A stretch of 64,000 nt of DNA from Pocillopora verrucosa (Eukaryota; Cnidaria; Anthozoa; Scleractinia; Pocilloporidae). Position 1 is the stretch's first letter. Each line of letters begins with the position of its first letter. The translations under genes were made by a program, and so were the position numbers. The DNA lies in NCBI RefSeq assembly GCF_036669915.1, contig NC_089316.1:22411997-22475996 (forward strand). Reading direction: 5' to 3'. Positions 2,782-45,094 of this stretch are shown here, one piece after another. The notes under the pieces were generated by a model, which did no database searches, had not been told where the DNA came from, and saw nothing but the letters and a program-made list of their open reading frames with translations.

Positions 2782-5700
2782 ATGGAAAACAGCGTACGAG
2801 ATACAAAAATGACCACCAGAAAAAGAGACCGAAAAGAAATATTTTACACGTGCTCTTCTACGCTATCGATCATTTCAATTGTTTTAGTGTTTGCTCTGTT
2901 TGTGAGAATAGAAACTGTCACCCGGGACTTGAGGACAACGGACACGAAATTCTCGCTGCAAATTCAGCAAATCCGAGACGTTCTGAAAGAAAGTTCAGCC
3001 TCTTCCCGCGGGAGCGAAAACTTCGACGCATCAAATGGTAAGGTGACTGAGAACTTACTCTGAATTTTTTTAGTTCTTAGACCAAATTTTGTTACTGTGT
3101 ATATATTCTCTTTTATAAAAGCTATATATTGTACGGTATGTGTGTTTTTTGTCTGGACATTGGATAGAAGAACGATAAGATAACGAGCACGATAATTTTA
3201 TCACGCATTTTATTCATGGGCGACTAATGTAATTGTTTAGTATTAATTCCTCAGTCGTTCAAAACTTAACATCAAGACAGGCTCGTGTTTTTATTAATTT
3301 TGTCTACAGCAATGCAAAATTATATTAATTAGGCTAGTAACTTTAATCGCCATAGATATAAGTGAGAACATAATTTCGAGTGAAATTTGGTGTCAATAAG
3401 CACGAGTAAATTTTTTAAAGACAACAAAATTGCTCGCGCCGGTAGGGCAAGTTAAAGCGTGCGTGCGCTATTTGTAATTTGCATTCGTCCTACAACTTTG
3501 CACTCGTGTTTCATGAGAATATATCCGTTTTCAGCGCGTAATTTTTTTTCATGTATATTATACAAACGGAGCAAGTAATGAATAACGAAGCCAATCAGAC
3601 TGCCGAAATTATATTAGAACGCTTTTACAAGATTTATACTACATTAATATGTTAGATTCGTCCGTGAAAAGGCACAACATCAACTATCAAAGGTTCTCGT
3701 TCTATCCCGAAGCATCTGGGCTCGAGTGCGCACGCTTTAAAAATGTCTTTAGACTTTTGCAAATCACCTGACCCAGATTATATCGTCTGTTCCGATGACT
3801 AATGCCGCAATTCTTTTAACTCTTACAAAATTAATAAAGAATATGTCAATATTGAATACAGCCAAAATATACTTGAAACACTAGTCAATGATTTTACTTT
3901 GTTTATTTTAGCGAGCCGATACAAAATTTCGGTTCTTCGTCGCAGCGCGGATACAGTTAACGGCAATGAATCGATTAGGAACTATGACATTGGAGAGGCT
4001 ATCAAGAGATACGTGCGATCGATTATGAAAGGATATATTTGTCAAAGTCCAGACAGGGTTTGCGTGGCAGGGTCCCCCGGACCAATAGGAGCTCGTGGTC
4101 TTCCGGGAAAAAGAGGGCCTAAAGGAATTAGGGGAAAGAAGGGAACGCGAGGAATGGTGGGACCTCCAGGAGAACCGGGAAAGCAAGGCATCAAGGGAGA
4201 TATTGGCCCCAAAGGAGTCAAGGGAGAAAAAGGTAAACAATAACATAACGATAATGATCATAATAATGACAAAAGCAAAACTTATTTTTTTGGAAAAAAA
4301 TATGTGGTCAAATAAAAATACAATGTTAGTTTGTGATGATAGTTTTATTTGGATGTGCTTTTGTTTGATTTTGCAACTTATTCATTTTCATGGGTGTATA
4401 TTTCCTTTCATCATTTCATCGCAACATTGCTTAATGCTTAGCGTGCGCTTTTTGAAGTTACCTTGAAGTTCTGTGTTTGTATGGACTGTTTTTTACAATG
4501 GTATAATAATAATAAAGCCGTTTTCAGCATTGTTGTTAAGTTTACGTTACACATATGATCTTTTATGTGTCCCTATCTAAAGGAGCGATCTTTAATGATT
4601 ATCATTTCATTATTTCCTTTAACTAGCAACTCTTCTTTTCTCAGGAAACCCAGGGACACCTGGACAACCAGGAGCTAAAGGTGAACCAGGCGAGTCCCTA
4701 TCTGCACCAAAGGTGACTGTATCACCGACTTCAGACACTGTTACTGAAAACCAAACTGCTACGTTTTATTGCTCGGCTAATGGCAATCCAACGCCTACCG
4801 TCACCTGGAGTAAAACAGGTGATACGGAACCAATTGCAAGCCCACATAATAAGTTAGAAATCACAAAAGCTACGTATAATGACTCGGGAAATTATGTTTG
4901 CACAGCTAAGAGCATATTGGGTGAGATGCAAAAGCAGGTGAAGCTCCTTGTGGAAGGTAAGCATATTTTGGAGAATGGATTTTTTAACAGCCAGCAATCG
5001 TGACCCTAATGAGTTTATATTTGATTTTTTTTTATTTTTTGGTTGGCGTAACTCTTCACGGAATGTTCGGAAAAGACTTCATTCAAAAAGATTCCTCAGA
5101 AAAAAGTTATCTAACATTTTCTCTTTTAACTTTCCTTAAATGTTTCTTAGCCATGTCTGCGTCAAAAAAAATACAGTCAAAAATATGTCATTGCGCTTGT
5201 TTAAGAGAAAGGATGGGCCAAGCTTACCCCATTTATGCTTGTGCTGGCACTAATCACGCGCATTATTTAATCGGTTCACAGTACATTTAGCGGTAGCTTG
5301 AAGGAAGAGTTTTTAAAGTAACAATTGTTACGGGTAAATTTACTGATTTTTCTGTGTGTTTGCTTGGGCATATTTACGCATAAACGTTTCATGCTAACCA
5401 TTTCCAACTTATTCAAGTTCTTTCGTTCTAGTATTTCAACAAATTAGAAAAGCTACAATAATTTTCTAATTTCCAACTGTTACGTTTTGCTCGTTACTTT
5501 GGTTTCATTATACACCTGTATGTCGGTACTTTGAGGATCATTTCTGTTGAAATTGCATATAAACATAGTGTCAATGCTCTCCCTGGAAATACAATTATAA
5601 GTTTTCATGATCTTTCTGGGAAATTGATTCTCATGGAAGTTGGCAGCTGAGTTTGGGCTCGTAAGTTCGCTTTCCTTTCATAGGATAATTGCTCGCGTTG

Positions 5701-8700
5701 CCGCTTTTTCAGAAATTATTATTACGTCCCACTTTTATTTTCTAAGCTACTCTACCGCAATTAAGAGAGGTGTTCAGATGGCCTAGAGTCTATTTAATCC
5801 GTTCTTTAGTTTTGAAATTCTTTCCCAAACAGAGGGAATACTTAACTAGAATCACTTAGCTTTAAAGAGACATTTTCCGCTTCTTTTGTAACCTTATTAA
5901 GGTATTTTAAATTTAAGGGGCAATAGAGCCACGCGCTCGATAGTACTTAGGAAGTAAATTGTAAAGCTGCGAGCCGATTACATTGATTACGAAGTTAGCT
6001 ACGTCAGAGTTCATATCGGTTTTTTACATAAACTAGAATAAACCTACTGTAAAAAGCTCGCTCGAACCAGATCTCCGTGTACCAGGGAATCGTGACGAGT
6101 TTCCGTCGTCGCTGCCAAGTTGCCTCTACCAAGCTTATTTTTCCCCGTTTTTGTACGTTTCCCACGAAGTCTAGTTTGAGTGCGGGAAAAACTATCGTCA
6201 CAAAGTTTAAAAAAAAGAAGCTTATAGATAGAAATTATCGAGCGTAAAAAGGAAAAATCACACAATCTTAAACGACATCGACTAAAAAGGGTTCCTCGAG
6301 TCGTTGCTTTCAAAGTTTTACTTTGCATCAACGGGTAACGGGCTTCGCGCGCGCTTTTAGCTGCATCTTTTTTCCCTTCAATGAATTTTTTTAGATTCCC
6401 CAGTTTAAAGGGGATGAATTGTACACCAAAATCGTGCAAGAAAAAACTCTAGTTCATCGTACCGTCTTAAGAACATAAGACCATCGCACCTCTTTAGCTA
6501 GTCCATTGATTGAAAATCAGTACTGTTTTATCGGAATGCGCGTGCGCTTATTCGCCTGATTATGTAATTTTTTGCGCAGTATAGGATGCGCAGTGCAATA
6601 CTAAGGAGTTACCGTAACTCTTTATTCATTATAATAATAAGTTTGATAATAGTAATCATGATAATGGTAATGAAATAAAATTTATAACAAATAATTATAA
6701 TATGATGATGATAATTATTTTAAAAATAATACTAACAACGAAGATAATAATGACACTAATGATGAAAATAGTGCAGTTCTATATTTATTTATGGTCTATA
6801 TTCTGTATTTTTTCTCTTATCGTTACTACATTTATAATTTTGTTTGTTTTGTCTTATGCATTTGATTTTACTACCTAGGACCTCTAGAACACTGAGTTTT
6901 TCATTTGGATTTCAGATTAAAATTTTGAATGCTTATTAAATCAATTTAAAACGTAGAAAGAAGGAGATGCAAGTCGAAAAAAAAATATCCCGATTCTCGA
7001 ATTAGTCCTCTAAGAAACTACACGATCCTGGCAAGGGAGAAAAGCTTATTAGTAATCACAGTTTTAAATATGAATGGCTGGAGAGCATAAAAAAAGTATT
7101 GCATTTCCTTGGCAGTTTCGATCCTCAATGGACTTTTTTGTTTGTATCTTTTTCCATCTTAAAATAAAGTAATTTTGTTTGTATCTTTTTCCATCTTAAA
7201 ATAAAGTAAGCCAAGATTTTTTAAGAATTGCTAAGGGAACTTAGATAAAACATTTTTTATTTGTTTTCCTCAGCTCCTCCACGATTTACCAAAATTCCAA
7301 ACAGAGTCATTAGAGTCAATAGAGGTAAAAAAGCATCTGCCTCTTGCCAGGCGTTTGGTTTTCCGACGCCAAAAATAGTTTGGTCAAGAGGACTTGTCCC
7401 GTTACCACAAGGTCGAACAAGTGTCAGTAATGGAACCTTAGACATATCACACTTTGATCCTAAAGATTCTGGTACGTACCGATGTACCGCGTCCAACAAG
7501 CTGGGATCTATCAGTGCTTTGACAACTCTTTATTATATACACAGAGGTATGTCTGAAGAAGATATCCCTTCTTTTCCTGAAAAAGGCTAAGGAGGTTAAT
7601 TGTTGTTGATAAATGAAATCGGTGTACTCAGTCTCAGTCAAAATTACCGAGTAACCCCCTTGACTTCAAAACGGGTTTTTTTTATGATACTTATCTCCCC
7701 TTTTACAACTAACAACGGTTTTAAAGTCTAATACTGCATTCGATTTCAACTTAAAACCTTAAAAAAGTTTGTTTTCTTCTAGTAAGAGGAAAGAGCATGT
7801 TTAAGACTATTAACGCCCCCTTTTTAACGGTAAATTAACAAAACAAATAATTCTCAGATACAAACACGACTAAGAATCGATCAATTTTTAAAAAAGATAC
7901 TCTCTTTTTGTGTTAACTAAAAAGAGTTTAAGGCCGTCTTTACCAACCTTGGTGCAAGTGGAAGATTTGGTCCAACATCACTTGGTAGTCACTACGCTAA
8001 TCAGGATCATGACGGACAAGTTACATTGTCCAGCGGTATTCAACAGTGGACTGTGCCGTACACTGGTGACTACAGAATACAAGCAATAGGAGCAGCAGGA
8101 GGGTATGATTCATACGCTAACAGTGCTCAATACCGAGGGAGAGGAGCAAGAATGATTGGAACATTCCGTTTAAAGGAGGGTGAAGTTATTCAAATACTTG
8201 TCGGTCAAGAAGGAGGAGTAAACGGGCGGAGTCATTCCTCTGGAGGTGGTGGAGGTACATTTGTAGTAAGAGGAGCCTACACATTCTTGATTATAGCCGG
8301 GGGTGGAGGAGGCATAGAATCTGCACGTTCAAGGCATTCAGGATGTGATGCTAGTACTGGTTCATTGGGAAATCCTGGGCACAAGTCATGGTCAGGGGGA
8401 AGCGGTGGACATGGTGCACAGACCGCTGATGCTTATAATTCTGGTAAGTGGGTTTTTTTGATGCTATCACCTATTTCCGAACCAAAGCCTTAATGTAAAG
8501 TATCCGCATATCAATAAATTCTTGTCAGAAAAAAGCGAAAAGTAAAAATTATTGAAGTCAAATTAATTTTATAGCGAACTGTATGGCAATTATCATCGAT
8601 CTCCGCTAATTTTTGTAACTTCTAGTCTAGTCAGTCAAAGAATGAACAATTTTGCCAAGTTCTAAACCTACATGAACAGGTTAGGAAGCGACTGCATACA

Positions 8701-9073
8701 ATTACCATTCTTGTTGTTGTTAACCCTGACAGGTGGCGGTGGCGGAGGTTTCTTCTCCAGTGGCAGAAGTTCAAAGCAGTTTGGCGGTACCTCGGGGTAT
8801 GGTGGAGAAGGTGGCAGAGGATTTATCCAAGGAGCGGTGGGAGGTAGAGCCAAGTTTAACAATGCTGTTGGTGGATTTGGTGGAGGTGGAGGTGCTTACG
8901 GAAATGGAGGAGGCGCAGGAGGAGGAGGAGGATACTCTGGAGGAAGCAGTGGAGATAATGAGGGTAATTCGTGTGGAGGCGGTGGAGGATCTTATAATGC
9001 TGGAAAAAATCAACAAAACGAATGTTGCTATCAATCATCTGGCCATGGTCAGGTGATCATAACCTTACTGTAA
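2782..9073 (+). CDS. Copy A: type II membrane collagen-Ig-Ig-ALK-type glycine-rich protein
   Basis: Six exons: 2782-3037, 3912-4232, 4645-4956, 7274-7546, 7925-8443, 8733-9073; all introns phase 1; 673 aa. The start lies in a CCATGG-type context conserved in the array. Residues 1-19 are basic (KMTTRKRDR), 20-41 a membrane segment, 42-72 coiled-coil-like; basic-side-in predicts N-in, C-out. Cys129 and Cys136 precede 24 Gly-X-Y triplets (139-210), which should trimerise. Ig1 has Cys235, Trp247, Cys278; Ig2 has Cys321, Trp333, Cys367. Residues 388-673 resemble the ALK/LTK glycine-rich domain: [67 protein letters not shown]. The chain ends just after GHGQV with no second membrane segment or kinase. 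Sequons: N104, N228, N271, N349. The biological role is unknown; a surface receptor, ligand or recognition molecule is inference. Confidence 0.88.
3400..3600. repeat. Dispersed repeat in intron 1, present in all four intact copies
   Basis: Sequence with AAAGACAACAAAATT, a GTAGGGCAAG core and repeated TTGCACTCGTGTTACA-type motifs. Equivalent blocks lie at about 12790-12960, 20240-20420 and 27900-28090, and a diverged relative lies in a RagC/D intron at about 56760-57060. It was probably already in intron 1 before the array expanded. Confidence 0.5.
4957..7273. other. Copy A intron 3, no gene; contains simple AT repeat
   Basis: The 2.3-kb intron between the two Ig exons has no supported exon. 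About 6620-6780 is a degenerate ATAAT/GATAAT tract that recurs at similar places in D (about 31455-31560), E (about 35815-35950) and F (about 42370-42520). A 30-bp unit (GTATCTTTTTCCATCTTAAA) is tandemly doubled at about 7143-7207. Confidence 0.55.
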
Positions 9074-9097
9074 AAAAGTACTTTTTGGCATTATTAA

Positions 9098-9934: not shown

Positions 9935-9938
9935 TTAA

Positions 9939-12060: not shown

Positions 12061-12100
12061 AGTGTATATATCTGAGGTCACGTATGACGTAAATAAGTTA
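12061..12100 (+). promoter_or_regulatory. Conserved proximal promoter block of copy B
   Basis: GTGTATATATCTGAGGTCAC followed by a full TGACGTAA element, about 100-135 bp before the start codon. This is probably the least altered version of the block shared by the four intact copies. Confidence 0.5.
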
Positions 12101-12197
12101 AAGCCGGAAAGGGAAGTTTTCAAATGGAGATGGTCTAAAAGCGCTTCAACTGACCGGAACGTGAATTGAACCTTTCACCATTGTATCTCCATTCGCC

Positions 12198-15100
12198 ATG
12201 GATAACTGCGTACCAGATACAAAAATGACCACCAGAAAAAGAGACCGTTACGTCATATTTTCCATGTGCTCTTTTACTTTATCGGTCATTTCAATTGTGT
12301 TGGGTTTTGCTCTGTTTACGAGAATAGAAAGTGTCGCCCGAGACTTGAGGACAATGGACACGAAATTCTCACTGCAAATTCAGCAAATCCGAGACATTCT
12401 AAGAGAAAGTTCAGCCTCTGCCCGCGGGAGCGAAAACTTTGACACATCAAATGGTAGGTTGACTGAGAACTTACTCTGAATTATTTCTCCCTAATTTTGT
12501 CCTTGTGTATATGCTCTCTTTTATATAGTATACGGTATCTGTGTTTCTTGTCTAGACATTGGATGGAAGAACGATAAGACTGCAGGCACGAGAATTTTAT
12601 CACGCAGCGACTAATGTAATTGTTTTAATATTAATTCAGCAGTCTTTCAAAACTTAACATCAAGACAGGCTCGTGTTTTTTTAAAATTTTGACTACGGCC
12701 ACCCATTATTAGACTAGTAGCTTTAATCACTATATGGTTAAGTAATAACATGATTTCGAGTGCAATTTGATGTTAGTTAGCGAGAATAAATTTTTCAAAG
12801 ACAACAAAATTACCCGAGCCCGTAGGGCAAGTAAAAGCGCGCGCGTAAATTACACTCGTGTTACAACTTTGCACTCGTCTTACATGAGAACGCGTAATTT
12901 TTTTCATGTGCGTTATTAATAACGAAACAAGTAACGAATGGCGAGGCCAACCAGACTTCAGAAATTGAGTTAGAACGCTAGTGAGATTTATACAACATTA
13001 ATGTGTTAGCTTGGTTAAAAGGGCACGATATCAACTATCAAAGGTTCTTGTTCTATCCAGAAGCATCTGTGCTCGTGCACATTCGCATTAGATATGTATT
13101 TAAATTTTTGCAAATCGTCTGATCCAGATTATATCGTCTACTCCAATGACTAATTAAATGCGGAAATTCTAGCCAGTCTTCAAAAATTAATAAAGAATAT
13201 GTCAATATTGAATGCAGCCAAAATATACTTGAAACATCAATCAATGATTTTACTTTGTTTATTTTAGCCATCCGATACAAAATTCCAGTTGTTCGTCGCA
13301 GCGTGGATACAGTTAACGGCAATGAATCGATTAGCCTCTATGACCTTGGAGAGTCCATCAAGAGATACGTGCGATCGATTATGAAAGGATATATTTGTCA
13401 AAGTCCAAACAGGGTTTGCGTGGCAGGGTCTCCCGGACCAATAGGAGCTCGTGGTCTTCCAGGAAACAGAGGGCCTGAAGGAATCAGGGGGAAGAAGGGA
13501 ACGCGAGGAATTATGGGACCTCCAGGAAAACCGGGAGAGCAAGGTATCAAGGGAGACATTGGCCCTCAAGGAATCAAGGGAGAAAAAGGTAAACAATAAG
13601 ATAACGATAATAATCATAATCATAATAATGACAAAAGTAAAACTTAATTTAAAAAAAATGTTGTGGTCAAAAACTATTACAATGATGGTTCACGATGATA
13701 GTTCCAATGTACTTCTGTTTTATTTTAGCAACTTTTTCATTTTCATCTGAGTATATATTTTTTCATCGTTTCATTTGCAACATTGCTTAATGCTTAGAGT
13801 GCGTATATCGAGGTATATACCAAGGGGAAGTTCGGTGAGCACGAGAGTAGGAGAAGAGTTTTTTTTTTTTTTTTAACAATCGTACAATAATAAAGCCATT
13901 TTTCCTCTTTGTTGTTAAGCTTACGTTACACATATGATCTTTTATGTGTCCCTATCTTAAGGAGCGATCTTTAATGATTATCATTTCATTATTTCCTTTA
14001 ACTTGCGACTATCTTTTTCTCAGGAAACCCAGGGACACCTGGACAACCAGGAGCTAAAGGTGAACCAGGGGAGTCCCTATCTGCGCCAAAGGTGACCGTA
14101 TCACCAACTTCAGACACTGTTACTGAAAACCAAACTGCCACGTTTTATTGTTCGGCTAATGGCAATCCAACGCCTACCGTCACCTGGAGTAGAATAGGTG
14201 ATACGGAACCAATTGCAAGCCGACATAATAAGTTAGAAATCAGAAAAGCTACGTATAATGACTCAGGAAATTACGTCTGCACGGCTTTGAGCATATTGGG
14301 TGAGATGCAAAAGCAGGTGAAGCTCTTTGTGGAAGGTAAGCATATGATGGTGAATAGAGTTTGTCACACACAGTCAGAAATTTTGACCCCCATGACTTTA
14401 TATTTGATTTTTTATCTTACTTCACGTAAATCATCCCGGAATGTTCGAATAACTTCATTCAAGATGATTCTTCAAAAGAAGTTATCGAATCTTTCCTTTT
14501 TTAACTTTCCTTAATTGTTTCCTACAAATGTCTGTGTCCAAAAATACCATTAAAAAATAGGTCATTTTGCTTGATTAAGAGATAGGATGGCCCAAACTTA
14601 CCCCATTTAAGCCTGTACTAGCACTAATCACACACGTTATTTAATCGTTTCACGGTACATTTTGCGTTTTTAAAGTAACAATGAAAAACACTTGATGGGT
14701 AGAAATTCTCGATTGTATGGAACATTTTGATATATGATTTATAATGGTAATTGAACTGAGGTGAGTGCAATTTGGGCTGAAATAATACGCGTGATTTCAA
14801 AATGGAACAAGCGCGCAGCGCGAGTTCGATTTGAAATCACAAGTATGATTTCAGACCAAAATTGCCCAACGCAAGGTTCAATTACCATTTCATTACATCC
14901 ATTTTGAAATCGCCCAAATACAGGATTTGGTCAGTTCTAATATTTTATTAATACAATACTGAGCCGGTTTGAAATTAAACTCATCCATTTTTTGGGAGGA
15001 AAAAAATAAGAGTTTTGGAAACAAAAGTTGCAAAATTTGCCACGTGATACTCCATGTCTTTCATCTTCCTGCAATATAATCGGTTACGTTAAACAAGCCA

Positions 15101-19500: not shown

Positions 19501-19501
19501 G

Positions 19502-19540
19502 GAAGTAGATATTTGAGGTCACGTACGATGTAAATAAGCT
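19502..19540 (+). promoter_or_regulatory. Conserved proximal promoter block of copy C
   Basis: TTGAGGTCACGTACGATGTA, about 100-135 bp before the start codon. The CRE-like half is altered (CGATGTAA instead of TGACGTAA) and the TATATAT run is degraded to TAGATATT, so C may be expressed differently. Confidence 0.4.
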
Positions 19541-30200: not shown

Positions 30201-33200
30201 GCCCTTAGCGTTAGTAAATTTAGGTGACCTCTGAAATCTTATCTTTTTACAGGTATATTTTATATCTTAGGTTGTAAGTTTTATTTTGTTTTATTTTCAT
30301 TTTATAATTTTTTTTATTAGTATTGTAAAACGCCTTAGAACTTTTGTATAAAGCGCTCAATAAATTATTTTTTCATTGTTATTACTTTATTTTATATGTA
30401 AATACCTAAAATATTTAATAATTATCATTTAATTATTTCCTTTAACAACTCTCTTTTTCTCATTGTTACACTAAGGAATCCCAGGGACACCTGGACAACC
30501 AGGAGCTAAAGGTGAACCAGGGGAGTCCATATCTGTACCAGAGGTGACTGTATCACCAACTTCACACACTGTTATTGAAAACCAAACTGCTACGTTTTAT
30601 TGCTCGGCTAATGGCAATCCAACGCCCACCGTCACCTGGAGTAGAACAGGAGATACGGAACCAATTGCAAGCCCACATAATAAGTTAGAAATCACAGAAG
30701 CTACGTATGATGACTCGAGAAATTATGTTTGCACAGCTAAGAGCATATTGGGTGAGGTGCAAAAGCAGGTGAAGCTCTTTGTGGAAGGTAAGCATATTTT
30801 GGAGAATAGCGTTTGTTATAATTAAAAATTGTGACCTTAATGAGTTTAGATTTGATTTCTTATCTTACTTACGTATATCTTCGCGGAATATTCACCGTGC
30901 TTGTTTAAGAGATATGATGGGCCAAACTTACCCCAATAATGCCTGTATCAGCACTGATCACGCGTGTCATTTCAGCGGCTTAAGGTACATTTTTGCGATA
31001 GCTGGAAGCGAGGGTTTTTAAAGTAACAATTATAAAAAACTTAATGGATAGAAAGTCTCGAGCATTTGGAATATTTTGATGTATGATTTAAGGATAAATC
31101 ACACAATTTTAAACGACATCGACTCAAAACGTTCCTTGAATCGTTGCTTTCAAGGTTGTAATTTGCATCAACGGGTTCTGTACACGTTTTTAGCTGCATC
31201 TCTTTTTTCTCCCTTCGATAAATTTTTTTTAGATTCCCCAATTTAATGGGGATGAATTGTACACCAAAATCGTGCAATAAAAAATACAGTTCATCATACT
31301 CTATTAAGAGCATAAGACCATTGCACCTCTTTAGCTGGTCCATTGGCTGAAAAACAATACCGTTTTCTCGGAACACGCTCGCGCTTATTCGCCTGATTAC
31401 GTTATTTGGAGCAGGATGCGCAGTGCAATACTAAGGAGTCACCGTCACTATTCATTTATTATGATAATAATGATAAAAAAAAATTTTAACAAATACTAAT
31501 GATAATGACGATGATAATCATTTTTAAACACTACTAAAAACAAAGTAATAATAGTGACACAAATAATGAAAATACGAAAGGTCTTTATTTATGGTCTATA
31601 TTCTTTATTTCCTGTCTTATCATTACTGCAAATATAATTCTGTTTCTTTTATCTTAAGCATTTGATTTTACCACCTAGGTCTCCTAGGACACTTTTTAAG
31701 GAATAAAGTATCGGATCTGAACTTTATGCTTTGATTTTAGATTAAATTTAAATTACTTTTTAAATCAGTTTAAAACATAGAAAGAAGGCGATGCAAGTCG
31801 GAAAAAGAATATCACGAGGCTGGAAATAGTCCTCTAAGAAACTACTTCAACCCGGAAAGAGTGAAAAAATCATAGCTCTTCAAAGTTTTGAATATAAATG
31901 GTTGAAAAGCATAGAAAAGTAAAATGTACTGCATTTCCCAAGCAGTTTCGATCCTAAATTTTTTTTTGCTCGTCTTTTTTTTCATTTTTTGGAAAGTAAG
32001 CCAAGATTTTTAAGAATTGCTAAGTGAATTTAGATGAAAACATGTTTTTTCTTTCTTTCCCTCAGTTCCTCCACGATTCACTGAAACTCCAAACAGAGTT
32101 ATTAAAGTCAGAAGAGGTACAAACGCATTTGTTTCTGGCCAAGCGTTTGGATTTCCTTCGCCAGAAATAGATTGGTCAAGAGGACTTGTCCCGTTACCAC
32201 AAGGTCGAACAAGTGTCAGCAATGGAACTCTCCACATATCACACTTTAATCCTAAAGATTCTGGTACGTACCAATGTACCGCGTCCAACAAGCTGGGATC
32301 TATCAATGCTTTGACAACCTTGTATTATTTTAACGTAGGTATGTCTGAAGGCGATATCCCTTTTTTTCCGAAAAAATCTAAAGAGGTTAATTGTTGTTCA
32401 TGAATGAAATCGGTGTACTCAAGCTTAATAAAAATTACAGAGTAGTCCTCTTGAGTTCAAAACGGGAATTTTACAATAATATTGATCTCTCCTTTGGTGA
32501 CTAACAACAGTTGCAAAGTCTGACAATTATGCATTCAATTTGAACTGTAAAACCTTAAAAATACACGTATATAGAATTTGTTTCTTCCAGTGAGAGGAAG
32601 GAGTATGTAAAGGACTATAGTAAAGTCATTTTAATTAACAGTAAATGAACATAACAAATAATTCTCAGCTACCAACACTACTAGGAATCAATCAATTTTT
32701 AAAAAAAGATACTTTCTTTTTGTGTCAAATAAAAAGAGTTTAGGGCCGTCTTTACCAACCGTGGTGCGAGTGGAAGATTTGGTCCAACATCGCTTGGTAG
32801 TCATTACGCTTATCAGCATCATGACGGACAAGTTACACTGTCCAGCGGTATTCAACAGTGGACTGTGCCGTACACTGGTGACTACATAATAGAAGCAATG
32901 GGAGCAGCTGGAGGGTATGATACAAACCCTAACAGTACTCAGTACCGAGGAAAAGGAGCAAGGATGATTGGAACATTCCGCTTAAACAAGGGTGAAGTTA
33001 TTCAAATACTTGTCGGTCAAGAAGGAGTATTAAACAAGGTGGGTCATTCTAATGGAGGTGGTGGAGGTACATTTGTAGTAAGAGGAGCCAAGACACCTTT
33101 GATCATAGCCGGGGGTGGAGGAGGCACAGAATCTGCACATTCAAGACATTCAGGATGTGATGCTAGTACTGGTTCATCGGGAAATCCTGGCTACAAGTCA

Positions 33201-34263
33201 TGGTCAGGGGGGAGCAATGGACATGGTGCACAGACTGCTGATGCTGATAATTCCGGTAAGTGGGTTGTTTTGATGTTATCACCTGTTCTCGAACCAAAAC
33301 TTTTATGTGTGCTATCCACATATCACTTAAACTTTGTCAGAAAGAAGAGAAAAGTAAAAATTATTGAAGTCATAATAAATGCTTTTGATGGCGAACTGCC
33401 TTGTGGGCAGATTGGGAATTTACCATTGTTCAATGTTAAATGATTTTGTTTTCATTTTTTTGTTTTATTTGGTTTTTGTTTCTTTAGTCTTATGGTTGTC
33501 TTGTTTTTAATTTCAAAGTGTAGCTTTAAAATAAATAAGCTGTAAAGCTACCAAAGGGAACTTGAAAACAGATCATTTACTTGCTCTCACATTTGTCATA
33601 ACACGAGACCTCTACTTGAAGATGTGCGCAATTTTGTATTTTAAAGTTGGCCTGTAGGCATCGTTATCTTTCAAATTCTTACTCCATTTTTATTTTTTCA
33701 AAGTGAATTTTACATCAACGTTGACTCAGTTACATTACTGTGATATCGACCTATATTCAATGACACGGTGTGTCTGATTAATTATCATCGATCTCCGTTA
33801 ATCTTTGTCCCAAGAAAGTAACTTCTACTCTACTCAGTCAAAGAATAAACTATTTCACTAAGCTCTAACCCCACATGTACAGATTGCATACAATCATTCC
33901 TTGTTCTTGATAAAACTGACAGGTGGCGGCGGCGGAGGTTTCTACTCCAGTGGCAGAAGTTCAAAGCAGTTTGGGGGTACTATGGGAAAAGGTGGAGAAG
34001 GTGGTAAAGGATTTCTCCAGGGAGGGGTGGGAGGTAGAGCCAGGCATTACAATGCTGTTGGTGGATTTGGTGGAGGTGGAGGTGCTTATGGAACTGGAGG
34101 AGGTGCAGGAGGAGGAGGAGGATACTCTGGAGGAAGCAGTGGAAATAACGTGGGTAATTCTTGTGGAGGCGGTGGAGGATCATATAATGCTGGTAAAAAT
34201 CAACAAAACGAATGTTGCTATCAATCATCTGGCCATGGTCAGGTGATCATAACCTTACTGTAA
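27279..34263 (+). CDS. Copy D: type II membrane collagen-Ig-Ig-ALK-type glycine-rich protein
   Basis: Exons 27279-27534, 28390-28710, 30476-30787, 32066-32338, 32737-33255, 33923-34263; every exon has the same length as in copy A; 673 aa. Features of its own: Ig2 has lost its first canonical cysteine (VSGQAF where the others read ASCQAF or VSCQAF; residue 321 Cys to Gly) and has IDWSRG for IVWSRG, so this domain lacks the usual disulfide. The collagen run carries a new sequon, GRNGTRG. The coiled-coil has a Leu to Pro change (KFSPQIQQ). The collagen exon and intron 2 group with C, whereas exons 5-6 and intron 5 group with A ([10 protein letters not shown] end), so D looks recombinant. Intron 2 holds the shared LINE tail plus a D-only SINE. 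The frame is open throughout, so it is probably functional. Confidence 0.85.
29771..30394 (+). mobile_element. LINE tail in copy D intron 2, interrupted by later insertions
   Basis: Same element and site as in copy C ([20 protein letters not shown]; 3' end TTAGAACTTTTGTATAAAG with ATT-rich tail). It is split by about 280 bp that includes a tRNA-derived SINE, so the SINE arrived after C and D had come to share the LINE. Confidence 0.65.
29971..30118 (+). mobile_element. tRNA-derived SINE
   Basis: The first 73 bp resemble a tRNA. The seven-base acceptor arms pair (GTCTCTG with CGGAGAC, one G-T), an A box (TAGCTCAGTGG, 29978-29988) and a B box (GGTTCGATTCC, 30023-30033) are present, but the D, anticodon and T stems have mismatches and there is no clean anticodon loop. 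A non-tRNA body and an A-rich AAACAAACAAAC tail follow. This fits a SINE with a pol III promoter better than a working tRNA gene. Confidence 0.65.
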
Positions 34264-34264
34264 A

Positions 34265-34270
34265 AATAAA
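34265..34270 (+). terminator. Poly(A) signal of copy D
   Basis: AATAAA overlaps the region just after the stop (TAAAAATAAAGCG). The matching place in copy A reads TAAAAAAGTAC, without the signal. Confidence 0.45.
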
Positions 34271-36369
34271 GCGTATTTTGGGCATCATTAAACACATAAT
34301 GACTGATTCCAATGTAAACAGCCCTTTTCCCACGGCGGACCCGACGAAAAAAAAATATCTGTTTCTCAAGGGAAAAGTCAGTCAGCATTCAGTTTTATTT
34401 TTTTTTCAAATTCTCAGCCAATTCATTACGTAACAATCTATTGTAAGGAAACGCCATCAGATTGGCCATGTGATTTAGAAAGGCCATACCAGTTTGTTAT
34501 GCATTCGAGGCCTTTTGAAAATATCTTTAAGATCTTGCGGTATGTAATTTTTCATTTAAACACATCAATCAATTTTTTTTTCTCGTCGATATTTTCGTTT
34601 TATTGTATTTTATCTCAAGCTTTCTCAAGAACGATTATATTAGCTGCTTCTGGTACTGTGGTTCTTAAAGAAATCAGTACATTATTTTAGTTTTTAAAGC
34701 TGTAGATATTTAGCTCGAGGGAAGAGGGCCACATCGCTGTGCTCACTCAATCCTTCCATAACTACGTGCGCCCATGTATTTTTCTCTCTGTACAGTACCT
34801 TTTAGTTTTCAAAAATTTATTTGCCATTTTTAACCATCATGTATGGTGATGACTTGTTCCCCCTGACAATAGCTTCCACCCCCCTCCCCCCCTTTCGTTG
34901 TACACAACTTAAACTGCCCACTAGCTGCCTCTGTTCCCTTTAACCTAAACAAGGTTTTATCCACCAGGGAGCAAACATCCTTTTTTTTAGACTCGATACG
35001 ACATCATTTCTTTGGAAGGGGTAAAAAAAAAAAATTAAAAGTGTTCCCGACTTTACGATTGCTGGCTTTGCGCTATTTCTGGAGAATAGTCACGAATTAG
35101 TTGCAAATAGACGATACCGTTACATTATTTCAAGAATGTAATTAACAGGAGAGGGTCTAACGTCTCGTATTTCAAATTTAAAAAAAAAATGAAAAATAAA
35201 ACATATCATTTCAGGCCTGATTGCACTCTAGGCGATCTAAGAGCGGCAATATAAATTTTCTATCAAAATTCATTTAGAAAGGTTACCCGCTTTTCCTTCT
35301 TTACATAATTTTTGCGCGTCTCTCGTAACTGTCACAGTTAGTGAAAACAAAACGTAAATCATTTCCTAGATGTAAACTTAAAACTGGTTTAATTACTGTC
35401 AGAATTTAAAAGCAAAATAGCACAGAGTTTGCACATTGACTTATGAAAGTCTGACAAGTTTGTTAAGATGTCACCTTTATTTGAGCTTTTGTAAAGCCGG
35501 AGTGACTCTTTTAAAATGTCCTCATTCAGTCTGCAGTAAATCAAATTTCATCATGCTCTGCTTAGCTTTGAGAGTAAGGTGCAAACTGAGTTACTACATC
35601 TTCACACTCAAGTGGTTATATCATGAGAATCGCAACTAGTGAAAGTATCAATTGTTTTCCAAAAATTAATTGGCATCCGCATGATCGGCACAAGACGAAA
35701 ATATGATGGCCTAAGCTTGATGGCAAGGGTACCAAGTTTAAATAGGAGAGCGTGATTTTGTGCGCAGTACAGTATGCACAGTGCAATACCAAGAATCATA
35801 GCAACTCTATTTATTATGATAGTAAGTTTGATAAAAGCAAAAATGATAATGATAACAAAATTTAGAACAAATATCCATGATAATCACATGATAATTATTT
35901 TATACATAATACTAACAATAAAGATAATAATAATTACTCTAATGATGAAAATACTAAAGGTCTTCATTCATGGTCTATATTCTGTACTTTTTCTCACATC
36001 GATACTGCAATTATAATTTTTTTTATTTTGTCTTAAGCTTTTGATTTTACTGACGTAGGTCTTCTAAAACTCTTTCCAAGGAATAAAATAATGTTTGACC
36101 TGAACTTTATACCTGGATTTCAGATGAAAATTTGGAATGTTTACTAAATCAATTTTAAATTTAGACAGAAGGAGATGCAACTCGGAACAACTATATATCA
36201 CAAGAATCGAAGTAGTCCTTTAAGCAACTACTTGACCCTCGTAATAAGCTCCTCCCGAAACTTCTTATTTTCATCAAGAATAAATTAGCACAACAAACTT
36301 TTATCAATTACTTACACGACTCAGAATCATTCAATTCTAAACATTATAAGCTATTTTATGTTGACAAAG
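34271..36369. other. Spacer and intron remnants between copies D and E
   Basis: About 34970-35755 is the unit spacer found also at 1-800 and 10020-10760. At about 35755 it joins directly to sequence matching intron 3 of copy F (about 42300 onward). The promoter, exons 1-4 and intervening introns of unit E are therefore deleted. No gene is seen. Confidence 0.6.
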
Positions 36370-38162
36370 CATCCTATAGGGCCGTCTTTATAAATCTTGG
36401 TGCGCGCTGAAGATTTGGTCCAACAACGCTGGGCAGTTACTACAAAGGTCAGGATCACGACGGACAAGTTAAATTGTCAAGCGGTATTCAACAATGGACT
36501 GTGCCGTACACTGGTGAATACAGAGTAGAAGCAATATGAGCAGCAGGAGGGTACGGCAAGACCAAAGACAAAAAGGGCAGCACCTCTAGTTACAGAGGAA
36601 GAGGTGCAAGAATGATTGGAAGTTTCACTTTATCCAAAGGTGAGATTATTCACATACTTGTTGGTCAAGAAGGAACGATCAACAACAGTTCAAAGTATCC
36701 GTTCGCTAGTGGAGGTAATGGAGGGACATTTGTCGTTAGAGGTGGCTGTACACCCTAAATAATAGCTGGAGGTGGTGGGGGCGTGGAGACATTACTTTCA
36801 AGGCAACCTGGATGTGACGCTAGTATAAGCAAAACAGGGAATCCTGGATACAGATCATGGTCAGGGGGGAGCAATGGACATGGTGCACAGACTGCTGATA
36901 ATGATAATTCTGGTAAGGTTATAGCACGATAACATAACCCTCTTCAGCTTTGTGCGCTGAAACTGCCGTGTCTTCTTGTGTAGTAGGAGTGTACAAAGTC
37001 GAATGGGATCTTGCTACTTTTAAGAAGTAACTAATGATCTGTTTAACAAATAGACACCTTGACTGTCCTTTATTCTACTCTAGAGCACGTAGGAAGCGGC
37101 CAGAGCACCGAAGAAGTGAGGGAGAAACACGAGACGTGGCTAAATGTTTCTCTCTACTTCTTGAGCTCTGTGCATTGTGCTCTGATAGAGCACGCTCTTT
37201 CTCAGCGCGCGTTATATCCGAACTTTCTAATAAAAATATATATATAGTGCACATAATATTTTCTTGCTTTCTTTTAATCAGTTTTTTTGAAGGGTTTTAG
37301 CGTAAGTCTTATCCAGTTGCACTGACGGTTCATTTAACCATGTTAGTCGTATTACGTTACTAACCTGGTGGAAATCGTTTGATAGATTTTTGTGATATTC
37401 TGATAATACCAAGGGAAAGGTTCTATATGGTCTAGCGTTTTTATAACGACATGAAATAAATTGAAAGGTGGAATTAATCAGAGGAGTTTTAAGATAATTT
37501 AGCTTAATTTGATAAAGTTTGTGTTCATAGTTACAACAATAGTTCAGCTCTTGAAAACTGGCATTTAAAGTATGTCCTTTCTCATCGGAAAATTGAGTTT
37601 AGTATATATCACAGGAGATTTAGTGATTATGATATTTTTCGACAATTAAGATGTATTTACCCTCTTTTCCTCTTGCCTACCTTTTTCTTAAGAGTGTATT
37701 TGATAATAACGGCATTTTTGGTTCAAAATATTTCCCCCAGTTGACTATGTAGAGAAATTATCATTTCTTTCTTTATTTTTTTGTTTTTACTGTATCTCAT
37801 CCTTGTTGTCTTTTATAACAGGTGGCGGCGGGGGCGGTTTTTACTCCAGTGGAAGAAGTTCAAAGATGTTTGGTGGCACCATGGGAGATGGTGGAGAAGG
37901 TGGCAAAGGTTTCCTTCAGGGAGGGGTGGGTGGAAGAGCCAAATTTAATAATATTGTGGGTGGTTTTGGTGGTGGTGGTGGTTCATACGGTAGGGCGGGA
38001 GGCGCCGGAGGAGGAGGAGGGTACTCTGGGGGGAGCAGCGGAGAAAATGAATATAATTCCTGTGGGGGTGGGGGAGGCTCTTACAATGTTGGTAAAGATC
38101 AGCAGAGTGAATGTTGTTATAATGCAGCTGGTCACGGTCGGGTGATCATTACACTGCTGTAG
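36370..38162 (+). pseudogene. Copy E: fragment with glycine-rich exons 5 and 6 only
   Basis: Exon 5 remnant 36370-36912 aligns with C and F but has three in-frame stops (TGA 36408-36410, TGA 36537-36539, TAA 36756-36758). Exon 6 (37822-38162, 341 bp) is fully open with a good acceptor (TAACAG) and ends GHGRVIITLL plus stop. Exons 1-4 and the promoter are absent. As a gene it is dead. The intact last exon could in principle be joined from an upstream copy because the phase matches; no evidence for that here. Confidence 0.8.
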
Positions 38163-39552
38163 CAAGATCAGATCGATAAACTTCGAAAACTATATCTTTG
38201 ATTTCAAACCGCTTGCTTGTATTGGTAGCCCTTGGAAATAAAATGTGACAACCTTGAAAATATAAGTTTGTTTTTTTTGGTCTAAAATTTAAAGAGGCTG
38301 ATGCAGAAACATTCCCATTCCAGGCTCTTATTCAATGCAATTGAAAGAAAATGCGGGCGAAGGAGAAACACTTCAAAGTGCAAAATTCTGTACAAAAATC
38401 GAGGGAAAGTGATTCTTTATTTGTTACGATTTGCTATCGAATACCAATCAAACTTCTCCTTTTAAGAAACACAGCTTCTCGTAATTACATAATTATTTAC
38501 AATTAGTACATTAAATTACACTAATTGAGAGACCTGCCCGGTTCATGAACTAAATCACCTGACAGCTCCCTACTTCATATTAACTCCTTGCCAAAACAGG
38601 TGGTCCGCTCATCGTCGGTTCTAAACTTGTCACGCTACACTCTTGGCTCGAGCTAAGTCCGTCACATAACGTTGGTTTTATTAACTTGCGGAGGAGAGAC
38701 CTTGGAAATTTTGGGAGTGAAAAATTATCGGAAAGCAAGGTTGAAATAAGCCCGGCTTTGGTAAAACATATTTTATATTTACTTTTTTTTCTCCCGTTGC
38801 CTATGTTTTTGTTTTGTTTGGCTTTTCAAACTGCCTCAAACATACAACTATACAACAACCCTGACAAACAAGAACGAAAACAAAACGAGACAATTATAAT
38901 AGCGTCAAGTCTACGGTATACAGTACCACGCAAGACTCGACACGGTTCACGATTACAACGATCACATTATTAGCATTTTGAGAACTACGATCAGTCAACT
39001 TGACAAAAACTGACAGCGAAAGCTGTTTCATATTCTACAGATGAAAGGCCTGTTAAAGTAAGAGACAATCTCCCTCGCAAGTACAGCGACGCTTTCGTCT
39101 TACTGAATACGTTGCAAAACAGCACATTTGAGCCTGCGCTACACTACTACAGCGTTGTCATTTCTTTCATGATCCAGGGCGGGGATTGCGCTGCCGTTTG
39201 AGTACGCAGCTGAAGGGGACTGGGAGCCAGTATCGGACACAGACCTCATCTGGCGTTTGACTTCAAACACCTGACGAAAGGAAACGAAATTTCAACAATT
39301 TAATTGATCACTAAGACTTATTCGAGAGAAAGTCAGATGGTATACAAGGTGAAGGTTTAGAAAAGTTGAACCGGGAAGGATTGCCTTCCTACTGTGTATA
39401 ACGTCTGATTGATTGAAAACCAAAAATCGACAGACAAACAAAAACAAAAGCTAGCAAATAAAACTAAAACAAAGAAAAAACAAAACAAACAAAGAGAAAC
39501 AAATTTAAACTACTATTGCAACGACAGTATTCGGTACCCCTGAGGATGAGTG
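38163..39552. repeat. Segmental duplication of the array/RagC boundary (copy 1)
   Basis: Aligns with 45095-46456; about 38590-39240 is nearly identical to 45470-46110. Similarity stops sharply after GAGGATGAGTG at 39552 and 46456. It carries the 3' flank of the array gene and the last exon of RagC/D. The high identity implies a recent duplication or gene conversion. Confidence 0.75.
39139..39270 (-). pseudogene. Orphan copy of the RagC/D last exon
   Basis: 132-bp open exon with acceptor CGTCAG, beginning [19 protein letters not shown] and ending in TAG, almost identical to 46022-46153. No other RagC/D exon lies nearby on this strand, so it is a stranded copy from the segmental duplication. 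Confidence 0.75.
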
Positions 39553-40889: not shown

Positions 40890-41328
40890 GCCAATCAGAA
40901 CATAGATTTCGCTGAAAAAAAGCAAGTAGCTTGTTCATCCACGGCCAAATGGTGACCGGAGATAAAAATCAGAAATTTAGTTCAGATTTGCTCCTCGCGA
41001 TATTCTTAGACAGATTAACAGGAGATGTAAAGCCAGGTGACCTCAATTTTATAAAACGTACAAGCAATTTTCAATTTCATAAGTTTCACAATAAAAACAG
41101 GTAAAAGTCGGCTTATAAAGTATAGTGGGGGAGGTTTTTTCGCTGATATTCAGGGATAACTTAGAAATTGCTTGACATAATTCTTAATAAATTTAATACA
41201 TGTGAGGCTTTTGACATTATAAGTCATGTTACTCTTTCGGTCTTACTTTATGTGTGTCTGTTTCTTTATCGGAAGCCAATCAGAACATAGATTTCGCTGA
41301 AAAAAAGCAAGTAGCTTGTTCATCCACG
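40890..41328 (+). repeat. 54-bp exact direct repeat at the left edge of copy F
   Basis: Positions 40890-40943 and 41275-41328 are identical over 54 bp (starts GCCAATCAGAACATAG, ends GTTCATCCACG) and 331 bp apart. The second copy abuts the truncated exon 3 of copy F, so the repeat marks the junction created when the 5' half of this unit was lost. Confidence 0.75.
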
Positions 41329-41339
41329 ATTCATCCATC

Positions 41340-44300
41340 CAGACACTGTTACTGAAAACCAAACTGCCACGTTTTATTGCTCAGCTGATGGGAATCCAAC
41401 GCCTACAGTCACCTGGAGTAGAACAGGTGATACGGAACCAATTTCAAGCCCACATAATAAGTTGGAAATCAGAAAAGCTACGTATAATGACTCGGGAGAT
41501 TACGTTTGCACGGCCAAGAGCATATTGGGTGGGGTGCAAAGGCAGGTGAAGCTCTTTGTCGAAGGTAAGCATGCTTTGGAGAGTAAAGTATTTACTGATA
41601 GCAGTTGTGACCGTAATGAGTTTTTCTTTGATTTCTTATCTTACTTGATGTAAATCTTCACGGAAAGACTTCAATTAAGGTGGTTCCTCAGAAAAAAAAA
41701 GTTACCCAGCAATTTTTTTAACTTCCCCTAAATGTTTCCTACCCATATCTGTTCCCATGTCTGTTTGTTTCAAAAAAAATACAATGAAAACGATAAGTCA
41801 CCATGCTTCTTTAAGAGATATGATGGGCCAAACTTACCTCATTTATGCCTGTACTGGCACTAATCACGCAAGTTATTTAATCGGTTCACTTTACATTTTG
41901 CGTTTAGCTGGAAGCAAGGGTTTTCAAAGTAACAAGAAATAAAATTGATAAGTAGAACGTCTCAAGTATCTGGAACATTTTGATATACGATTTAGGGTAA
42001 AATCACACAATTTTAAACGACATCTACTCAAAACGTTCCTTGAGTCGCTGCTTTCAAGGTTATAATTTGCATCAGTGAGTAACGGGCTTCGTGCACGTTC
42101 TTAGCTTTATCTCTGTTTCCCTTCGAGGAATTTTTTTCTTTAGATTTTCTAATTTAAAGGGGATAATCTGTACACAAAATCATGCAATAAAAAATATAGT
42201 TCACTGTGCTCTTTTAAGAGCATAAGACCATTACACCTCTTCACCTGGTCCATTTATTGAAAAACAATGCTATTCTCTCAGAAAGCGCGTGAGCTTATTC
42301 GTCTGATTGCGTGATTTTGTGCGCAGTACAGGATGCACAGTGCAATACCAAGAATCACCGTAACTCTTTATTTATTATGATAGTAAGTTTGATAATAGCA
42401 AAAATGATAATGATAATGAAATCTATGATAAATATCAATGATAATCACGATGATAATTATTTTAATAATAATACGAACAATAAAGATAATAATAATTACT
42501 CTAATGATGAAAATACTAAAGGTCTTTATTCATGGTCGATATTCTGTATTTTTTTCTCATCGTTACTGCAATTATAATTTCTCTTTTGTCTTAAGCTTTT
42601 GATTTTACTGACGTAGGTCTTCTAAAACTCTTTACAACGAATAAAATAATATTTGACCTGAACTTTATACCTGGATTTCAGATGAAAATTCGGAATGCTT
42701 ACTAAATCAATTTTAAACGTATAGAAGAAGATGCAAGTCGGAATAATAATATATCATGAGGCTCGAATTAGTCCTCTAAGCAACTTCTTGACCATGGTAA
42801 GGGAGAAAAGCTTATTGGTGATCACAGTTTTGAATATGAATGGTTGGAGAGCATAGAAAAGCAGTTTTTGTTTGTATTTTTTCCCTTTTTTTTAAAACAA
42901 AGTGAGCCAAGATTTTTGAGAATTGTTAAGTGAACTTAGATGAAAACATGTTTTTTCTTTATATTCCTCAGTTCCTCCACGATTCACTAAAACTCCAAAC
43001 AGAGTTATTACAGTCAATAGAGGTAAAAACGCATCTGCTTCTTGCCAAGCGTTTGGTTTTCCTTCGCCAAAAATAGTCTGGTCAAGAGGACTTGTCCCGT
43101 TACCACAAGGTCGAACAAGTGTCAATAATGGAACTCTACATATGTCAGACTTTGATCCCAAAGATTCTGGCACGTACCAACGTACCGCGTCCAACAAGCT
43201 GGGATCTGTTAGTGCTTTGACAACCTTAAATTATATACACACAGGTATGTCTGGGGACGATTTTGTTCATGGCAATTTTTTTAAGAACTAGTGATGTCGC
43301 CTTACCTTCGAACTTCGTACTGACCCAAAAACTTCCAAAGCATTACATAAAAATACTATTGGCAGACTCTATATAGTTGTAAGTTAATATCCACTTAGAC
43401 GCACACGTGGCAAGCCTCTTGACTGACTTAAGTTGAAAGTGACATCTTTTTTCATATTGATGACTGAGAAAACGTTTTTTTGGTCATTGTCAGAAATTAA
43501 TACGCTCTTTGGTTGGGTGAACGAGTCGAAATATTTTTGGGCGAACTGGTGAGGGTGGAGCGAACTTGTGTTACGTTTGGGGGGCGAAATTCCAATGGGG
43601 AAAATTCACCAGTTACCAAATTACCAAGTAATCCTCTCGACTTTCAAAGGGAAATTATTCAACCATATTAAATTCTCCTTTTGCGACTGACAGTTGCAAA
43701 GTTTAGCCTGCATTCAATTGGAAATCTTTAGTCCTCGAAACCAGGAGCCCATTACTCCAAGTAATTACTCCAAGTAATGGGTTCTCCCAAACTTATTATT
43801 TTCATCAAGAGTAAATTAGCACAACAAACTTTTATCAATTACTTACGCGACTCAGAAACCATTCAATTCTAAACATTATAACTATTTTATGTTGATAAAG
43901 CATCCTTTAGGGCCGTCTGTACAAATCTTGGTGCGAGCGGAAGACTTGGTCCAACAACGCTGGGCAGTTACTATACAGGTCAGGATCACGACGGACAAGT
44001 TAAATTGTCAAGCGGTATTCAACAATGGACTGTGCCGTACACTGGTGAATACAGAGTAGAAGCAATAGGAGCAGCTGGAGGGTACGGAAAGACTAGGAAC
44101 AAGCAAGGCAGCACTGTGAGCTACAGAGGAAGAGGTGCAAGAATGATTGGAAGTTTCACTTTATCCGAGGGTGAGATCATTCAAATACTTGTTGGTCAAG
44201 AAGGAACGATAAACAACAGTCCACCCACCCGTTCGCTAGCGGAGGTGGTGGAGGAACATTTGTCGTCAGAGGTGGTAGTACACCTTTGATAATAGCCGGG

Positions 44301-45094
44301 GGAGGAGGAGGCATTGAAACTTTAAAGTCAAGACAACCCGGATGTGATGCCAGCACAGGCACATCGGGGAATCCTGGGTACAGATCATGGTCAGGAGGGC
44401 TCAACGGCCATGGTGCACAGACAGCTGATGGTAGTTATTCATGGTAAGATTAACTAGAGATCATTTTCACATTTAGATGAGGCATGCAGAACATTTTGTG
44501 GCGTCTTCCTTACATTAAATGATTCTGGTATATGGTTTTACAACCATACTAGACTTTTCTATTCGTTTAAACCTCCGAAGAATTTTCTGTCAGACATTCC
44601 CAAACCGTGCAATATGACGATCCTCTGCATAAGATAACTGTTGCATTTTGAGGAGTAGCGCACACTGTATGCAAGATGATATTGGATATCGAAATTGCGT
44701 TTTTTAGTGAATTTATACGAAACTGCACTATCATTTCTTTCTTTCATTTATTTAAGGAGGAGGCGGGGGCGGTTTTTACTCCAACGGGAGAAGTTCAAAG
44801 AAGTTTGGTGGCACCATGGGACATGGTGGGGAAGGCGGCAAAGGTTTTCTTCAGGAGGAGAGGGTGGAAGGGCTTTATTTGCCGATATTGTGGGTGCTTT
44901 GGGGAGGCGGTGGTTCACATGGACAGGCAGGAGGCGCCGGAGGAGGAGGAGGGTACTCCGGGGGAAGCAGTGGAGATAATGAATATGATTCCTGTGGGGG
45001 TGGAGGAGGCTCATACAACGTTGGTAAAAATCAGCAGAGTGAATGCTGTTTTAACAGGGCTGGTCACGGTCGGGTGATCGTCACATTGCTGTAA
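41340..45094 (+). pseudogene. Copy F: 5'-truncated, frameshifted array gene
   Basis: Exon 3 remnant 41340-41564 starts inside Ig1 (ACTGTTACTGAAAACC), having lost the collagen part and the acceptor. Exon 4 (42972-43244) is open, but the second Ig2 cysteine is Arg (TYQRTA). Exon 5 (43901-44443) has a one-base loss at about 44220-44232, so the frame stops at 44289, and an extra base before its donor. Exon 6 (about 44759-45094) has a base loss near 44853 and a compensating shift near 44900, giving a nonsense segment (EERVEGLYLPILWVL) before glycine-rich sequence resumes and ends [10 protein letters not shown]. It groups with C and E. No promoter, exon 1 or exon 2. Not a functional gene as written. 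Confidence 0.8.

Follow-up and report, generated by a model that had tools for sequence, protein, structure and literature searches.

CniFL proteins reportedly were first described in the Aiptasia genome paper. PMC5094078 describes them as anthozoan proteins that combine collagen with one to three Ig domains, mostly carry a TMD and occur in several copies in most of the surveyed species, and proposes that they are recognition receptors. The ectodomain of ALK and LTK, in turn, contains a ligand-binding TNF-like/glycine-rich fold. We analyzed a 64,000-nucleotide stretch of the Pocillopora verrucosa genome (the window; positions 22,411,997-22,475,996 of the contig referred to here as C5) containing a tandem gene cluster whose products carry this fold, hereafter the glycine-rich domain (GRD) or head, on a CniFL-like part, hereafter the chassis. 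The cluster adds an ALK-headed form to a chassis that was already known. Our literature search, with subscription papers mostly outside it, recovered CniFL, and none of the papers listed dealt with collagen-Ig proteins that bear a GRD or several kinds of head. The original prediction, made from the DNA letters and supported in part by our analysis, knew of no described family with this architecture; among the papers recovered this holds for the GRD head, and the chassis is known from CniFL.

Six-exon gene models were built from the DNA for four copies (copies 1-4; Table 1). All 20 introns are GT-AG and in phase 1, and the frame is free of stops up to the exon end in 24 of 24 exons. Counted from the inner ATG, the products of copies 1-4 have 664, 666, 667 and 664 residues; an alternative ATG 27 nt upstream adds nine residues, which reproduces for copies 1 and 4 the 673-aa product proposed earlier. 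The predicted tandem family of four intact and two broken copies was likewise borne out by the models, with the reservation that in copy 4 the first Cys of the second Ig domain is replaced by Gly (SCQ to SGQ), though the frame is open throughout. A fifth intact copy, copy 0, lies to the left of the window (G000:C5:22404932-22411490) and ends 506 bases before it; exon order and phase are alike in all five. The copy 3 product is identical at 624 of 624 residues to the P. verrucosa database protein P0001, which is copy 3 minus its start: the annotated model begins at residue 44 and drops the TM segment. The Stylophora model P0002 likewise begins late, and such models hide the membrane anchor in the annotation.

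Table 1. Features of the gene cluster, in window positions; the alternative inner start is given in parentheses
Feature	Position	Strand	Description
Copy 1	2782(2809)-9073	+	intact, head class A; 664 aa from 2809, 673 from 2782
Copy 1, exons 1-3	2782(2809)-3037; 3912-4232; 4645-4956	+	TM; coil, Cys pair, collagen; collagen + Ig1
Copy 1, exons 4-6	7274-7546; 7925-8443; 8733-9073	+	Ig2; head a; head b
Copy 2	12198(12225)-18020	+	intact, head class B (read as replaced)
Copy 2, exons	12198(12225)-12453; 13268-13588; 14024-14335; 15669-15941; 16556-17074; 17674-18020	+	
Copy 2, replaced tract (approximate)	16741-18020	+	from about codon 441 in exon 5 (20-codon windows), intron 5, exon 6
Copy 3	19640(19667)-25339	+	intact, head class C (read as replaced)
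Copy 3, exons	19640(19667)-19895; 20709-21029; 22391-22702; 23264-23536; 24145-24672; 24999-25339	+	
Copy 3, replaced tract (approximate)	23537-25339	+	intron 4, exon 5, intron 5, exon 6
Copy 4	27279(27306)-34263	+	open reading frame, head class A
Copy 4, exons	27279(27306)-27534; 28390-28710; 30476-30787; 32066-32338; 32737-33255; 33923-34263	+	
c5, broken	36375-38162	+	head exons only: 36375-36917 (three stops), 37818-38162
c6, broken	41340-45094	+	Ig1 41340-41566; Ig2 42974-43240; head a 43906-44429; head b 44755-45094

The two broken copies lie downstream of copy 4. Both head exons and the 3' flank assign copy c5 to head class C, its intron 5 does not, and intron-3-like DNA (35752-36239) lies immediately upstream of this copy. 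Copy c6, also of head class C, has no TM or coil/collagen exons; its frame breaks near 44220-44232, and Arg stands in place of an Ig2 Cys. The 3' flanks of c5 (38707-39006) and c6 (45590-45889) share 97% identity along 300 bases and are more alike than any other pair in the families listed. When 195 proteins were compared with the window by tblastn, five of 3,626 matches fell outside the copy intervals, all of them adjoining c5 or c6, and no Pfam match at E 0.1 was obtained for ten ORFs, of which eight lie right of 45.6 kb. Neither search gave a sign of a second gene set on that side, and we set the idea aside; the Pfam screen was at the ORF level, which longer or spliced genes could escape. 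That side of the window also holds nested direct and inverted repeats at 52727-54673, which are about 110-250 bases long and share 74-87% identity; related pieces occur at 47459-47603 as well. In intron 2 of copy 4, positions 29971-30044 match Rfam RF00005 (38.6 bits, E 1.3e-4); ARAGORN (bacterial code) calls no tRNA there, and the segment is possibly a tRNA-derived repeat.

The products of copies 1-4 have the layout originally predicted: a short K/R-rich tail, one hydrophobic segment, a coil, two Cys, collagen, two Ig domains, about 286 glycine-rich residues and a stop. The collagen run is exactly 24 triplets in all four, as had been claimed, and, at the rise per residue typical of collagen, a stalk of this length would be about 20 nm long. 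Pfam identified Collagen (PF01391, E 3.9e-15) and two Ig stretches (Ig_3 and I-set) in copy 1, and the closest structural neighbours of the Ig pair include those of MuSK, IgLON, Robo and Dscam. By hydropathy and inspection, the stretch after the K/R-rich tail is the sole hydrophobic one near the N terminus and a putative TM segment; 66 of 68 chassis have two Cys in the 45 residues that precede the collagen. Judged from sequence, the products would adopt a type II membrane orientation and would probably be trimers. In copy 0, one collagen triplet carries a Gly-to-Glu change (L039 3049-3369, exon 2), which may weaken the triple helix. Shedding at a conserved furin site was considered and rejected: the motif R-X-[KR]-R is present in 24 of 68 chassis, and a dibasic site in the linker, found in 66 of 68, is not greatly in excess of the 48.8 expected from shuffles. 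Any shedding of the ectodomain would be a weakly founded proposal.

Structure comparison, which included copy 3, showed that the head of the cluster proteins has the ALK-type TNF-like/glycine-rich fold, in agreement with the ALK/LTK-like layout that had been read from the last ~286 residues. Pfam recognized the glycine-rich region (PF12810) above cut-off in exons of copies 0, 2, 3, 4 and c6 and gave no match at E 0.01 in copy 1, with either the whole protein or the head, so that the domain assignment proposed earlier stands by Pfam for the former and falls below this cut-off for the latter. Two exons, beginning at a phase-1 boundary, encode the head, which a stop codon follows directly. In copy 1, Pfam found no tyrosine kinase, no EGF-like domain after the GRD, no MAM or LDLa before it and no Fibrinogen_C (PF00147); the head is C-terminal and kinase-less, as predicted.

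We then considered which other heads are carried by this chassis. A protein search gave 492 matches and a chassis search 764; the 120 listed of each comprised 195 distinct proteins, of which 95 passed a filter for Ig plus a collagen run, three of them admitted without the collagen run. Pfam analysis of 19 proteins revealed the following heads on the TM-coil-Cys-collagen-Ig chassis: TLDc (TLD, E 9e-24), C-type lectin (Lectin_C, 6e-16), D8C (D8C_UMOD, 5e-21), F5/8C (F5_F8_C, 2e-23), the ephrin-receptor ligand-binding domain (Ephrin_lbd, 1e-17), olfactomedin (OLF, 9e-71), SRCR (1e-34) and fibrinogen (Fibrinogen_C, 3e-80). Further heads among the 19 were WAP plus fibrinogen, Sushi repeats plus GRD, Sushi plus D8C, and regions with a weak or no Pfam match. 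The order collagen-Ig-Ig-GRD was found in eight of the 195 proteins listed (P0001-P0007 and P0009, from Pocillopora, Stylophora and Montipora; the head is cut in P0007 and P0009), and the order sought in other cnidarians is thus present, as regards its collagen, Ig and GRD parts, in Stylophora and Montipora. In P0132 and P0145 of Montipora, an ephrin-receptor ligand-binding domain heads a collagen-Ig membrane protein, a parallel to the ALK case. Some related TLD-, fibrinogen- or F5/8C-headed proteins sit whole on contigs of 2-3 kb, which we take to be transcripts; no transcript-like contig with collagen-Ig-GRD was among the matches listed (240 rows).

In a first chassis tree (86 rows), 18 head changes were needed, the minimum possible being 15 for the 16 head labels, which were assigned by hand from Pfam lists and by eye, several head kinds resting on one gene model each. 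For a careful tree, 27 of the 86 rows were dropped as long, near-duplicate or doubtful, leaving 59. In this tree the SRCR head falls inside a group of FBG heads (100/99), the ephrin-LBD head inside one of F5/8C heads (100/100), and a single clade was rejected for the chassis bearing FBG (p 9e-37), TLD (5e-44), D8C (1.5e-4) and F5/8C (0.016). The GRD-headed chassis were not rejected as one clade (p 0.074, 59 rows), which is compatible with a single origin of the GRD-headed architecture; the TLD-headed chassis of the coral proteins P0013 and P0055 is sister to the pocilloporid GRD-headed one (94/90). Among the rows dropped was P0105, a candidate for a recent GRD/D8C swap (chassis 82%, heads 27%) that we set aside, as its Ig3 is cut and it is perhaps a false fusion.

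The chassis exon has at least 50 matches at E 1e-6 in this genome (150 of 371 candidates scored). Surrounding DNA of 3.2-3.3 kb was examined for 30 of these loci, and chassis and head were linked by order and strand; for most of the loci beyond those named below, the head lies outside the piece. Two chassis exons at C5 6.0 Mb (L023+L043 and L016+L044) precede two Ig exons (89-100% to P0055), after which come TLD exons (78-99%). Elsewhere on C5, 1.5-3.5 kb beyond the chassis exon and on the same strand, lie TLD (1.23 Mb), FBG-like (75%; 3.28 Mb) and D8C (2.46 Mb) sequences. At C12 and L019, at most one Ig exon was found between the chassis exon and the TLD exons that follow it, so these copies may be cut or differently built. 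The first TLD exon of P0055 is 99% like L043 and the second 99% like L019, only 81% like L043; P0055 could be a mosaic model, another haplotype or the outcome of further exchange between copies.

Within the cluster, the evidence is good that the stalk and the head do not share one history. Among copies 1-4, dS averages 0.13-0.21 in the chassis domains and reaches means of 0.55 and 1.17 in head exons 5 and 6; pair 1-4 stays low in both head exons (0.15 and 0.16). In 20-codon windows, third-position differences climb between codons 381 and 461 in five of the six pairs: at about codon 441 for copy 2 against copies 1 and 4, whereas the pairs that include copy 3 show an earlier and more gradual rise; pair 1-4 remains low. 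With the cut placed at codon 440 after inspection of these windows, fourfold-site differences in the chassis were 0.11-0.17 in all ten pairs of copies 0-4. The distal head differed at 0.41-0.56 of fourfold sites in the seven pairs with copy 2 or 3, against 0.11-0.16 in their chassis (Fisher p 4e-6 or less); in the three pairs among copies 0, 1 and 4, the distal head (0.14-0.16) matched the chassis (0.13-0.17; p 0.86-1.0).

Introns and flanks were also compared. Intron 1 aligns between any two of copies 1-4 (six pairs, identity 0.83-0.86). For intron 4, the first 100 bases of copy 3 are already unalignable to copies 1, 2 and 4, and both ends of copy 2 align with copies 1 and 4; these patterns place the boundary at intron 4 in copy 3 and inside exon 5 in copy 2. 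When whole intron 5 was compared among seven copies by blastn, it matched in three of three pairs within class A (copies 0, 1, 4) and in none of 15 pairs between head classes; within class C (copies 3, 5, 6), pair 3-6 gave a full match, 5-6 a match of 25 bases and 3-5 none. The 3' flank aligns within class C and for pair 0-4, and fails to align between copies 1 and 4 (0.44). Given this last result and the intron 5 of c5, unalignable non-coding DNA alone is no proof of a class boundary. Since chassis and head are of a single age in copies 0, 1 and 4, we take it that copies 2 and 3 probably acquired their heads by recombination.

The original prediction had also called these genes diversifying. 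In the sense of selection this was not confirmed: mean pairwise dN/dS of copies 1-4 (NG86) is below 1 in every domain (TM+coil 0.58, collagen 0.41, Ig1 0.38, Ig2 0.50, exon 5 0.30, exon 6 0.11), and on these domain-wide means we set diversifying selection aside; they do not speak for an arms race.

GRD trees gave a further view of the heads. The GRDs of collagen-Ig genes were rejected as one clade (AU p 1e-45; nine of 40 rows): those of Montipora are sister to Montipora EGF-GRDs (100/97), and the copy 2 head groups with EGF-type GRDs (96/81). For full heads, the one-clade test gave p 0.032 with four Pocillopora heads, 0.0385 with seven pocilloporid heads and 0.45 with five heads after removal of copies 2 and 3. 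For the distal head, one clade of five Pocillopora heads was rejected (p 0.009) and was not rejected when only copy 2 (p 0.095) or only copy 3 (p 0.083) was left out. The protein trees agree in part with head replacement. The genome contains at least 94 exon-level PF12810 matches over cut-off, and proteins with EGF, Apple or Sushi domains carry the GRD as well. ALK-type GRD exons form large clusters at G000:C8:0.56-1.76 Mb, C4:27.3-27.5 Mb and C5:21.4-25.8 Mb. At a further three GRD loci in the genome (L002, L005 and L006), the first head exon ends at the same phase-1 point as in the cluster; a crude pattern search over 1.5 kb upstream found no EGF exons.

The discordance could also arise if all copies were old and gene conversion had homogenised the chassis half, from the 5' flank to intron 4, leaving the heads with their true age. 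Such a history equally predicts a boundary at intron 4 or exon 5 and an unalignable intron 5, and the uniform identity of intron 1 fits it. It is at odds with the grouping of the copy 2 head with EGF-type GRDs and with the equal divergence of chassis and head in copies 0, 1 and 4; the latter means that one duplication age covers whole genes there and leaves the heads of copies 2 and 3 as the odd ones. We therefore regard homogenisation of the chassis as unlikely. That the architecture is a model artefact, the Ig exons and head exons being separate neighbouring genes, is very improbable: the join rests on gene models and the related model P0105 does resemble a false fusion, yet order and phase are alike in the five intact copies, independent database models of Stylophora and Montipora (P0003-P0006) have the same order, and the frame of copy 1 exon 5 has a stop just upstream (ORF from 7921), so this exon opens no gene of its own there.

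As to function, the collagen, an Ig pair with such neighbours as MuSK and Dscam, and the hemicentin-like names of some related database entries would suit a structural or adhesive matrix protein, hemicentin-like or of the skeletal organic matrix, rather than a recognition receptor. We doubt this, since the heads on the common chassis are largely binding or lectin domains elsewhere and CniFL is proposed as a recognition receptor (PMC5094078). A kinase-less decoy, ligand trap or co-receptor in a coral ALK-like pathway appears less probable still, given the number of PF12810 matches and the presence of the head on EGF, Apple and Sushi proteins; this abundance and variety of hosts suggest a general binding module.

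We consider it most likely, with somewhat better than even confidence, that the cluster encodes trimeric, kinase-less surface receptors on a CniFL chassis, with recombined heads on copies 2 and 3. The chassis would comprise a short cytoplasmic tail, a signal-anchor TM segment, the coil, the Cys pair, the collagen stalk and the Ig pair, with the two-exon ALK-type head standing where the fibrinogen lectin head would be. The chassis would have duplicated in tandem, and recombination with its boundary at intron 4 or within exon 5, whether by ectopic gene conversion or by exon shuffling, would then have swapped head cassettes, in copies 2 and 3 bringing in older, divergent GRDs of the kind also present on coral EGF-type proteins. 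A trimer on the 24-triplet stalk and Ig pair would display three ALK-type heads away from the cell. Having no kinase and hardly any cytoplasmic tail, the product would not signal on its own; it may bind, cluster, tether or opsonise, in the recognition of microbes, symbionts or other cells or in adhesion, and might possibly be shed. The heads of sister chassis are mostly lectin-like or ligand-binding domains elsewhere, which favours recognition over structure. By analogy with these, a recognition role of the cluster proteins is plausible.

More broadly, and as a tentative idea to which we give slightly less than even weight, stony corals may build modular receptors by plugging many heads into one chassis via phase-1 introns, a process that would still be ongoing and would yield a germline combinatorial repertoire. 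If so, tandem clusters would be factories in which recombination sets different heads on near-identical stalks, and the ALK ligand-binding fold would be one interchangeable head of a germline recognition repertoire. A single cluster here offers an example of a head history that differs from the stalk history. Receptor variety by head exchange in corals, and the ligands of the heads (microbes, algae or self), can now be tested.

Compared with known systems, the cluster proteins share with ALK/LTK the TNF-like/glycine-rich fold. Unlike ALK/LTK, they have no kinase, no EGF-like domain after the head and no MAM, and their head is C-terminal on a collagen-Ig stalk in a predicted type II orientation; the ALK ligand-binding fold would here be employed as a free, kinase-less recognition module. 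MARCO, ectodysplasin and gliomedin combine, in the way predicted for the cluster proteins, a type II TM segment, a collagen stalk and a C-terminal binding head, but lack the Ig pair and carry SRCR, TNF and olfactomedin heads, respectively. In the mollusc FREP/CREP/GREP proteins, an Ig part is likewise paired with differing lectin heads, whereas these proteins are secreted, have no collagen stalk and belong to an unrelated lineage. Among coral proteins, the GRD of the EGF-GRD protein P0012 is 80% identical to that of copy 1, and GRDs of the two chassis interleave in the GRD trees, although the EGF-GRD chassis itself consists of EGF (or Apple) domains without collagen-Ig. The TLD-headed collagen-Ig proteins P0013 and P0055 have a chassis 54-61% identical to that of copy 1 and a TLDc domain as head. 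With CniFL, finally, the chassis is homologous (the fibrinogen-headed coral protein P0088 is 38% identical over 94% of the chassis query), but an ALK-type GRD takes the place of the C-terminal fibrinogen domain and there are two Ig domains where CniFL usually has three. CniFL is thereby widened from a single 'ficolin-like' type to a receptor family with one stalk and differing heads.
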